Positions 1,794-4,475 of a stretch of DNA of 46,803 nt are shown here, piece by piece. The notes beneath the pieces were generated by a model, which ran no database searches, was not told the DNA's origin, and saw only the letters and a list, made by a program, of their open reading frames with translations. The number at the start of each line of letters is the position of its first letter. Positions within the stretch are counted from its first letter, which is position 1. The position numbers and the translations under genes were made by a program. The DNA is taken from contig CALGMJ010000111.1 of the NCBI GenBank assembly GCA_937958875.1, positions 1 to 46,803 of the forward strand, written 5' to 3'. The DNA is from an uncultured Verrucomicrobiales bacterium (GTDB lineage: Bacteria; Verrucomicrobiota; Verrucomicrobiia; Verrucomicrobiales; Akkermansiaceae).

Positions 1794-2834
1794 ATGGCAA
1801 AGGTCACTGACATTCGCGTTCTCAATAACACCCCCCTGCCCTCACCTGCAGTCTTAATGGACGAGGTCGCGCCTAGCGAAAAAGAGGCTCAGCTCGTGGT
1901 CGATTCACGAAAAGAGATCTGTCAGTCGCTCTTTGTGCCTGATTCCCGATTCCTTTTAATCGTAGGCCCCTGCTCGATCCATGATGCTCAAGCTTGCCGC
2001 GAATATGCAGAAAAGTTGGCCACGCTCGCGGAGGAGGTGAAAGATAAAATCCTTATTGTGATGCGGGTTTACTTTGAAAAACCTCGCACCACAGTGGGCT
2101 GGAAAGGCCTCATCATGGATCCAGATCTTGATGGCTCGGATAACATCCCAAAAGGCCTCCTAAATGCACGGGAATTTCTCAAAGAGGTACTCTCGTTCGG
2201 CTTACCGACTGCCACCGAACTGCTCGACCCCATCACCCCGCAGTATATTGCTGATCTCATTTCCTGGTCAGCGATTGGAGCCCGCACGAGCGAGAGTCAG
2301 ACTCACCGCCAAATGGCTTCCGGTCTTTCCATGCCCTTGGGATTCAAAAATACGACATCTGGTGACATCATTGCGGCAATTAATGCGGTGAAAGCAGCAT
2401 CTCGCCCACAAACTTTCCTTGGAGTTTCTGCCGAAGGAGTGGCTTCAGCGGTTTCCACCTCAGGGAATCCAGACTGTCACTTGATTCTTCGAGGCGGTGA
2501 CCAGGGGCCGAATTTCGACGTAGATTCCGTCAAAGCCACGCGTGACACCTTGCTCAAACATGAACTTTCACCCTCGATCATGCTCGATGCTTCCCATGCG
2601 AACTGCGGGAAAGATCAAACACGGATGCCGGGAGTCTTTGAGGAAATCATCCGTCAGCGCACCTCCGGAGATCTCTCCGTCACTGGCGCCATGCTCGAGA
2701 GCCATCTCGTCGCGGGGAATCAGAGTGTTCCAGCAAAACTCAGTGATCTCACCTACGGACAATCAATCACCGACCAGTGTATCGATTGGGAAACCACGGA
2801 ACGCATCGTGAAAAAAGCAGCTGAACAACTTTAA
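1794..2834 (+). CDS. aroG/aroF-like: 3-deoxy-7-phosphoheptulonate synthase (class I DAHP synthase)
   Basis: LLIVGPCSIHD, RVYFEKPRTTVGWKGLIMDPDLDGS, GARTSESQTHRQMASGLSMPLGFKN, DASHANCGKD. ATG 1794 (MAKVTDIRVL) preferred over the track start at 1683, which overlaps the divergent gene. Confidence 0.95.
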   Translation: MAKVTDIRVLNNTPLPSPAVLMDEVAPSEKEAQLVVDSRKEICQSLFVPDSRFLLIVGPCSIHDAQACREYAEKLATLAEEVKDKILIVMRVYFEKPRTTVGWKGLIMDPDLDGSDNIPKGLLNAREFLKEVLSFGLPTATELLDPITPQYIADLISWSAIGARTSESQTHRQMASGLSMPLGFKNTTSGDIIAAINAVKAASRPQTFLGVSAEGVASAVSTSGNPDCHLILRGGDQGPNFDVDSVKATRDTLLKHELSPSIMLDASHANCGKDQTRMPGVFEEIIRQRTSGDLSVTGAMLESHLVAGNQSVPAKLSDLTYGQSITDQCIDWETTERIVKKAAEQL

Positions 2835-2965
2835 TTTCCTCATGACTCCTTCTCCAAAGAGAATCTTGGTATGACCATAATTTCTCTGACGTAAATATCT
2901 TACGAGCTTTCAGGATCAAAGCTTGAGTCTTGCACTTCTTTCTCTCTGAGTAAGACTCTCAGAAT

Positions 2966-3154
2966 ATGCGGTGGTCTGGTGACCAAGCTGACTGAAAACT
3001 CAGAGAATCTCTCTGGGTCCGATGTCTTTTCGGGGTTACCCCGGGAATATCAATGGCTCATCATGACCGCCGAGCAGGCCTCCTGGGGAGAGCTTCGCTC
3101 TCGCCACTAAGCCTGCTCCCAGAATGTTTAGTTGGTTCTGCCAGACCACCGCAT
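2966..3154 (+). ncRNA. Predicted retron msr-msd ncRNA (template for msDNA)
   Basis: a1 ATGCGGTGGTCTGG (2966-2979) is the perfect reverse complement of a2 CCAGACCACCGCAT (3141-3154), with two further G.U pairs inside. AAGC follows a1 with candidate branch G 2987. msr hairpin 1: CTCAGAGA-ATC-TCTCTGGG (2999-3017). msr hairpin 2: TTTTCGGGG-TTA-CCCCGGGAA (3027-3047). msd hairpin: GAGCAGGC (3072-3079)/GCCTGCTC (3111-3118), with inner GAGAGC-TTC-GCTCTC (3088-3102). RT start is 18 nt downstream of a2. Confidence 0.87.
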
Positions 3155-3172
3155 CTTATCCTTCTTCGATCT

Positions 3173-4429
3173 ATGACTCCACTGCGTTCCTTCATCGAGC
3201 ACCTCATCTCCGAAGCTCTAGGCGCTCCAGAGTTCGAAGAAAGAAAGGCACAAGTCCGTCGTCTATTCACCACTACCATTTCCCCAAAAGCAGCCTGGTT
3301 AGAGAAACTTTGCCGAGAAGAACCACTCTCAGACTACCTCCCTTTTCAGCGATGGCTCGACAGGCAACTCTCGAAAAAAGGAACGAGTATTTTGAGGGAT
3401 CAAGCTTGGTTCACCCCCCTACCAGAAGCTTACGACCATCAGAAACTTGGACTTCCGATGTTTTCTGCCCCGCTGGAACTAGCCAGACATCTAGCCCTCA
3501 GTCTCGATGAACTACGATGGTTCTCTGACATTCATGAAATAAATTCGGATGAAGGTCCCCTACACCATTATCGCTATCGCTGGATTCCGAAACGTCGAGG
3601 TGGACAACGGCTTCTAATGGAGCCCAAGGAATCTCTCAAAATCACGCAGCGTAGATTACTGGATTCTCTCATATCTCGCATGCCGCTCCATGAAGCGGCA
3701 CATGGGTTTCGCTCGCGACGCTCGATACGAAGCTTTGCCGAAATCCACACCCAGCAACGAGTTGTCTTGCGTATGGACTTACAGGATTTCTTTCCCTCCA
3801 TCACCTTTGCGAGGATGAGTGGATTTTTTAGATCTTTCGGGTATCCCACGAAGGTCGCTCAACATCTCGCGGGTTTAGTGACCCATGCGCCACCTAAATC
3901 AGTGCTCGCGCAATATTCATCTTGGCAGAAAAGAAAACGCCTCGCTGAGCGTCATCTTCCTCAAGGCTCGCCCACTTCCCCGGCATTGGCCAACGCCCTT
4001 GCCTATCGTCTCGATTCTCGTCTCACCGGATTAGCTACTCATGCAGGACTTTGCTACACTCGGTATGCCGATGACCTCGCCTTCAGTGGCGAAAGAATTA
4101 CTCACGCATTTGCCCAGAAGGTCAGCGAGATCGCGATCGCAGAGGGCTTTCTGATTAACCCCCGGAAAACCCAATTCATGAAATCTGGAGGGCAGCAAAA
4201 GTTGGCCGGAGTGGTCGTCAATGAACACCCAAACATTTCCCGCGCCGACTTTGATCAGCTCAAGGCAACTCTGCATAACTGTACCAAACATGGCCTCTCT
4301 TCACAAAATCATGACGGCGTAGCTCACTTCCGAGAGACGCTCCGCGGTCGAATCGCCATGGTTCAAATGCTGAACCCAGCACGAGGACAGAAGCTGCTAA
4401 AAATATTCGATCAGATCACGGCTCGATAA
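3173..4429 (+). CDS. Retron-type reverse transcriptase (418 aa from ATG 3173)
   Basis: HYRYRWIPKRRGGQRLLMEPK, MPLHEAAHGFRSRRSI, LRMDLQDFFPSITF, HLPQGSPTSPALANALAYRLDSRL, CYTRYADDLAFSG, EGFLINPRKTQFM, QKLAGVVVNEHPNISR. As remembered, this most resembles the myxobacterial retron RTs (e.g. Mx162). Track start 3053 lies inside the msd; in-frame ATG 3173 follows a2. Confidence 0.93.
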   Translation: MTPLRSFIEHLISEALGAPEFEERKAQVRRLFTTTISPKAAWLEKLCREEPLSDYLPFQRWLDRQLSKKGTSILRDQAWFTPLPEAYDHQKLGLPMFSAPLELARHLALSLDELRWFSDIHEINSDEGPLHHYRYRWIPKRRGGQRLLMEPKESLKITQRRLLDSLISRMPLHEAAHGFRSRRSIRSFAEIHTQQRVVLRMDLQDFFPSITFARMSGFFRSFGYPTKVAQHLAGLVTHAPPKSVLAQYSSWQKRKRLAERHLPQGSPTSPALANALAYRLDSRLTGLATHAGLCYTRYADDLAFSGERITHAFAQKVSEIAIAEGFLINPRKTQFMKSGGQQKLAGVVVNEHPNISRADFDQLKATLHNCTKHGLSSQNHDGVAHFRETLRGRIAMVQMLNPARGQKLLKIFDQITAR

Positions 4430-4435
4430 TAGCAG

Positions 4436-4475
4436 AAAAGCCCCCGCCAGAAGATCCAGCGGGGGCTTTTAAAAA
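4436..4475. terminator. Hairpin terminator ending the retron unit (bidirectional-looking)
   Basis: Perfect 12-bp stem AAAAGCCCCCGC (4436-4447)/GCGGGGGCTTTT (4459-4470), 6 nt after the RT stop; also downstream of the opposing gene 4497-6785. Confidence 0.88.

Follow-up and report, generated by a model that had tools for sequence, protein, structure and literature searches.

The window analysed here is a 46,803-nucleotide contig from an uncultured Verrucomicrobiales bacterium of the family Akkermansiaceae. Between a gene for DAHP synthase upstream and a gene for a 762-aa protein downstream, the latter having no Pfam match, it carries a structured noncoding RNA (ncRNA) element enclosed by two inverted repeats, a1 and a2, and directly followed by a reverse transcriptase (RT) gene. 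Coordinates of the different features are given in Table 1.

Table 1. Features of the retron locus (positions in the window)
Feature	Position	Strand	Basis or remark
a1, 5' inverted repeat ATGCGGTGGTCTGG	2966-2979	+	repeat search; covariation across loci
Inner end of the a1/a2 duplex, CCAA, pairing with TTGG 3132-3135	2983-2986	+	22/22 loci; window fold
Predicted priming (branch) G, in CCAA-G-C	2987	+	same position in 24 anchored loci; branch predicted
msr region: variable first hairpin (about 2998-3018) and conserved hairpin	2988-3054	+	fold; alignment
Lineage-specific msr hairpin TTTCGGGG-TTA-CCCCGGGA; consensus CTCYGGGGNTACCCCRGGG	3028-3046	+	100% of cells paired
CATGACCG block	3062-3069	+	invariant in aligned congeneric copies; between msr hairpin and msd stem
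msd hairpin, arms 3072-3093 and 3097-3118	3072-3118	+	fold; helices covary
Predicted msDNA template, copied from 3130 toward about 3055-3062	3055-3130	+	predicted from invariant G3131 and Ec86 geometry
Invariant G directly 5' of a2 TTGG	3131	+	24/24 loci
a2, 3' inverted repeat CCAGACCACCGCAT	3141-3154	+	repeat search
Retron RT, 418 aa	3173-4429	+	residues 1 to about 90 form an N-terminal extension; motifs FAEIH (X), YADD and LAG (Y)
12-bp hairpin AAAAGCCCCCGC..GCGGGGGCTTTT, probable terminator	4436-4470	+	begins 6 nt past the RT stop

As the original prediction had stated, the two 14-bp arms are exactly complementary. At spacings of 80-300 nt this is the longest perfect inverted repeat in the 46.8-kb window, the next best reaching 11 bp, and in 300 dinucleotide shuffles of 2835-3172 the longest repeat never exceeded 11. 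The duplex extends inward beyond the repeat by pairing of CCAA with TTGG; unpaired bases separate its outer from its inner part, which is a point against the retron reading. The predicted folding energy of the 189-nt ncRNA is -105.4 kcal/mol (z = -6.8), and none of 200 shuffled sequences folded equally well, in agreement with the strong hairpins proposed between the repeats. In the predicted fold, G2987 alone remains unpaired where the a1/a2 duplex meets an inner helix. A small hairpin, TCTGAG..CTCAGA, is also predicted just upstream of a1, at 2945-2963. The a1/a2-flanked ncRNA sits immediately upstream of the RT, as in retrons, and the RT ATG lies 18 nt past the second repeat, where it was predicted. 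A strong terminator had also been proposed 6 nt past the RT stop: a 12-bp hairpin is indeed present there, with an 11-nt loop that falls outside the limits of the terminator scan. In front of the locus, no sigma-70-like promoter was matched in a sigma-70 promoter scan.

Relatives of the RT were gathered from genome contigs, plasmids and congeners. Another 23 aligned loci have the same ncRNA upstream of the RT, with its parts in the same order; the resulting 24 loci, window included, comprise three near-identical Burkholderia copies. Hosts are Acidobacteriota, Planctomycetota, Gamma- and Betaproteobacteria, a Desulfobulbaceae bacterium and relatives of the window's host. In outline, a1 runs to ..CAA and is followed by G; the hairpin CTCYGGGGNTACCCCRGGG comes next, then the msd stem, and finally G and the TTGG.. 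of a2. Across the 24 loci, a1 ends in (C/T)AA or CGA, followed by G and by a variable hairpin; most loci then have the near-invariant hairpin CTCYGGGGNTACCCCRGGG. A linker and a GC-rich msd hairpin follow, and an invariant G precedes the TTG, TTA or TCG that opens a2. The gap between a2 and the RT is 6-25 nt in loci with a readable RT start.

Covariation of the inverted repeats, which the original prediction had put forward as a check, was observed among these loci. The four inner positions of a1/a2 are paired in 22/22 loci, and at positions 5-12 pairing is found in 127 of 176 cells, compared to 84 ± 7 (maximum 112) when a2 arms were swapped between loci. Conserved msr and msd stem-loops, a retron hallmark, are present: 95.5% of the cells are paired in the conserved hairpin and msd helices, with compensatory changes in 15 of 21 pairs, and the covariation score of these helices is 0.438 compared to 0.169 ± 0.015 after shuffling and at most 0.10 after sliding. 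A covariance search of homologous loci, also proposed initially, gave a concordant result. A model built without the window and its nearest relative (L013) still recovered the window copy, with a score of 36 bits and E = 2e-6 over 149 kb (E-values of this search being rough), and this copy was its sole convincing match within the window. Two congeneric copies that came to light afterwards and entered neither model, in G473 and G470, scored 85 and 94 bits, respectively. Across 97 genomes of the host's family the model gave 11 matches, all of them adjoining a relative of the window RT. No Rfam 15 match was obtained with the window at gathering score, with 2834-3250 at E up to 5, or with 25 related loci.

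Several variants were encountered in the course of this sampling. Three Burkholderia loci (L043, L044 and L045) are lineage members with a GGGGCTACCCC hairpin, on replicons of about 0.9-1.3 Mb; for two of these records the retron region is featureless in the PLSDB table. A Tsukamurella plasmid (L046) carries an altered hairpin, CCAGCGGTAACCGCTGG, with a1/a2 recognisable by eye, and a Dietzia plasmid (L129) gives a partial match to the ncRNA model. A sister RT clade (L022, L023, L024, L027, L028 and L030) has a different ncRNA, longer at 223-233 nt, in which the msd hairpin is very long; these ncRNAs have GGAGTTGA in common near a2 and no match in Rfam. Both kinds of ncRNA occur together in two genomes (G039 and G079).

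The RT frame is uninterrupted over its 418 codons and contains the motifs HGF, DFFPSI, LPQGSPTSP and YADD exactly as initially quoted. Its best PADLOC profiles are RT_other (457 bits, 2e-137), RT_outgroup (437 bits, 2e-131) and RT_XIII (351 bits, 4e-105), the other numbered retron types scoring 235 bits and below; the NCBIfam group II RT profile gives 52 bits for a cut-off of 300, and the Drt2 profile 34 bits for a cut-off of 390. The nearest PDB structure is the Ec86 RT, both by sequence (5e-29) and by fold (1e-14). With a modest AlphaFold model (pLDDT 70), retron RTs take the first 17 Foldseek places, followed by group II and DGR RTs. In a maximum-likelihood tree of 50 RTs, group II RTs stand apart and the window RT falls in a clade of 25 (support 99) which unites all 23 RTs labelled ncRNA-bearing, the other two being the actinobacterial plasmid copies mentioned above. 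Group II RTs are the only non-retron outgroup of this tree, and DGR and AbiA RTs were compared by fold search only. The RT thus groups with retron RTs by profile, fold and tree, apart from the group II, DGR and Abi RTs. Placement in one of the latter groups, a check raised with the original prediction, was rejected by profiles, tree and fold search.

The (Y)xDD active-site motif is intact, with YADD at residues 298-301. Two other motifs depart from the usual retron form: the X motif is FAEIH instead of NAXXH, its H being kept and its N replaced in 12/12 aligned members, and the Y triplet is LAG instead of VTG, the lineage having xxG. Neither motif is strictly defining: of 16 validated retrons, 2 (including Mx65) lack the N of NAXXH and 14 have VTG (PMC6868368). 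These alterations make the RT less textbook and do not lower the retron call. The Pfam RT domain starts near residue 130, and about 90 poorly conserved residues precede the shared region. This N-terminal extension recurs in most aligned members. Pfam gave no second domain above cut-off in the RT, and none in the extension; the first 80 residues of the AlphaFold model (pLDDT about 40-45) are too poor to interpret. In pairs involving the window RT, changes amount to 0.65-0.70 at third codon positions versus 0.23-0.27 at second positions, and the G470 and G094 RTs give a dN of 0.17 and a dS of 0.85. The RT is under purifying selection in close relatives.

In Ec86, the G before the a2 duplex stays uncopied and the cDNA starts one base further 5'; the cDNA extends some 15 nt beyond its stem. 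Retron-Eco1 (Ec86) has the same a1-G and G-a2 geometry as the window. The corresponding invariant G in the window is G3131, so copying should begin at 3130, and the template probably starts one base before G3131. The CATGACCG block is probably the end of the reverse-transcribed part, or RNA-DNA overlap, and its position together with the Ec86 overrun would place the far end at 3055-3062. The predicted msDNA is then about 65-80 nt long and branched at G2987, the far end being less certain; this is shorter than the 80-95 nt originally proposed. A priming G of the AGC type is a known retron feature (PMC6868368), and G2987 occupies, at sequence level, the corresponding place at the inner end of a1 in all 24 loci.

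From these elements the following pathway can be proposed. A single transcript would carry both the ncRNA and the RT, and the RNA would fold on the 14-bp a1/a2 duplex, lengthened by the CCAA/TTGG pairs. The RT would recognise this RNA, probably in part via the conserved GGGGNUACCCC msr hairpin, and prime from the 2'-OH of G2987. It would then copy the msd, starting at about 3130, traversing the 3072-3118 hairpin and stopping at about 3055-3062, and the window locus would in this way produce a branched msDNA of about 65-80 nt.

The two best profiles, RT_other (PDLC02949) and RT_outgroup (PDLC03740), match nearly the whole RT including most of the N-terminal extension, and both are matched by 12/12 aligned members; they are leftovers of classification rather than functional types, without an associated effector or mechanism. 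RT_XIII, the third-best profile, covers residues 89-416 about 100 bits below the best one, and unlike type XIII retrons the window lineage has no recurring neighbour gene. Mx162, Mx65, Sa163 and Ne144 have an extended RT N-terminus and a priming G in CAGC or GAGC (PMC6868368). By these descriptions the window retron resembles them in its extended RT N-terminus, a feature of the Mx162-like myxobacterial retrons, and in its non-TAGC priming context (here AAGC); Mx65 likewise lacks the N of NAXXH. Mx162 is described as a 241-nt transcript with a 162-nt msd (PMC6868368), compared to an ncRNA of 189 nt and a predicted msDNA of 65-80 nt here. The ncRNAs of the sister clade are closer to Mx162 in size. 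Ec86, in contrast, has a linked effector and no N-terminal extension comparable to that of the window RT.

Characterised defence retrons carry a partner gene. Across 28 loci, the RT is the sole recurring gene family, and neighbours recur only in syntenic close relatives and in scattered pairs; the six flanking window proteins gave no PADLOC match. The linked or fused effector that marks the tripartite defence retrons of types I-XIII was not found, and the linked-effector reading was rejected after this neighbourhood comparison and PADLOC search. Since the sampled lineage has no linked effector, the locus should not be filed under the effector-defined types. The host assembly (77% complete) contains a single retron copy. 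Among 27 genomes of the host genus, four copies are intact and one is eroded: G094 and G470 carry theirs at a common site, where that of G086 is eroded, and the window and G473 copies lie elsewhere. A search in congeners with the DAHP synthase and the 762-aa protein showed no clean empty site, because both flanking genes are on different contigs in the congeners that have both. No relative was found in viral contigs by a short-pattern search, and phage records gave only distant RTs (at most 36% identity).

Taken together, the inverted repeat, the fold, the RT profiles and the conserved, covarying ncRNA support the complete retron that was originally proposed: the locus is very probably an intact stand-alone retron, made of an ncRNA and an RT and free of a linked effector. 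Retrons are an already-known kind of element; the effector-less lineage to which this one belongs is widespread but unstudied.

Two other identities for the locus were weighed. A structured RNA upstream of an RT and the weak Drt2 match might suggest an ncRNA-RT system of a different type, DRT2 or DRT9 for example, in which the RNA templates repetitive or homopolymer cDNA. This is highly improbable in view of retron profiles at 350-457 bits, DRT9 structures ranking far below retrons, and an a1/a2 arrangement whose duplex is adjoined by an invariant G at every locus. Decaying, inactive remnants do occur among the relatives: in G086 (L058) the RT is broken and the ncRNA no longer recognisable, and in G073 (L059) one TAA breaks the RT frame, the ncRNA being kept intact. 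That the window copy is itself such a remnant is very improbable, considering its open RT frame, intact YADD, perfect 14-bp arms and terminator-like hairpin, and the selection visible in close relatives.

As for the role of this stand-alone retron, antiphage defence is the likeliest guess, which we make tentatively; the leading candidate function, at somewhat less than even odds, is defence or a related stress sensor, the effector being encoded elsewhere or constituted by the RT N-terminal extension. The locus may belong to a tripartite defence system with a toxic effector acting in trans, away from the locus, or residing in the extension, which recurs in most members and lies within the RT_outgroup and RT_other profile matches; single-gene RT-effector fusions also exist (PADLOC RT-TIR_XII, RT-Protease_XI and RT-Toprim_I-C). 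We regard this as possible, short of probable, given that the extension is poorly conserved, poorly modelled (pLDDT about 40-45) and without a Pfam domain, and that no neighbour gene recurs. To a similar degree it is conceivable that the msDNA is the only product and serves a non-defence role (regulation, DNA metabolism), or that the element is largely selfish. Solitary ncRNA-RT units in several phyla and their sporadic presence in the genus, with four intact copies and one eroded copy in 27 genomes at different sites, are in line with this; the purifying selection seen on the RT speaks against an entirely neutral passenger, and no positive evidence points to any particular role. Somewhat doubtful, finally, is the idea of a widespread retron lineage that functions with no linked effector and puts out nothing beyond msDNA combined with the RT and its N-terminal extension, or with a shared host protein.

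Retrons have been studied almost only as defence units composed of RT, ncRNA and effector. Since the present lineage consists of ncRNA and RT alone in several phyla, the purpose of an effector-less retron becomes testable outside myxobacteria. The lineage is a source of compact ncRNA/RT pairs for DNA-production tools as well, and its structure-based model finds such ncRNAs in genomes. If the effector-less reading is true, the GGGGNUACCCC hairpin and the altered X and Y motifs would be the signs of a separate way of recognising RNA.
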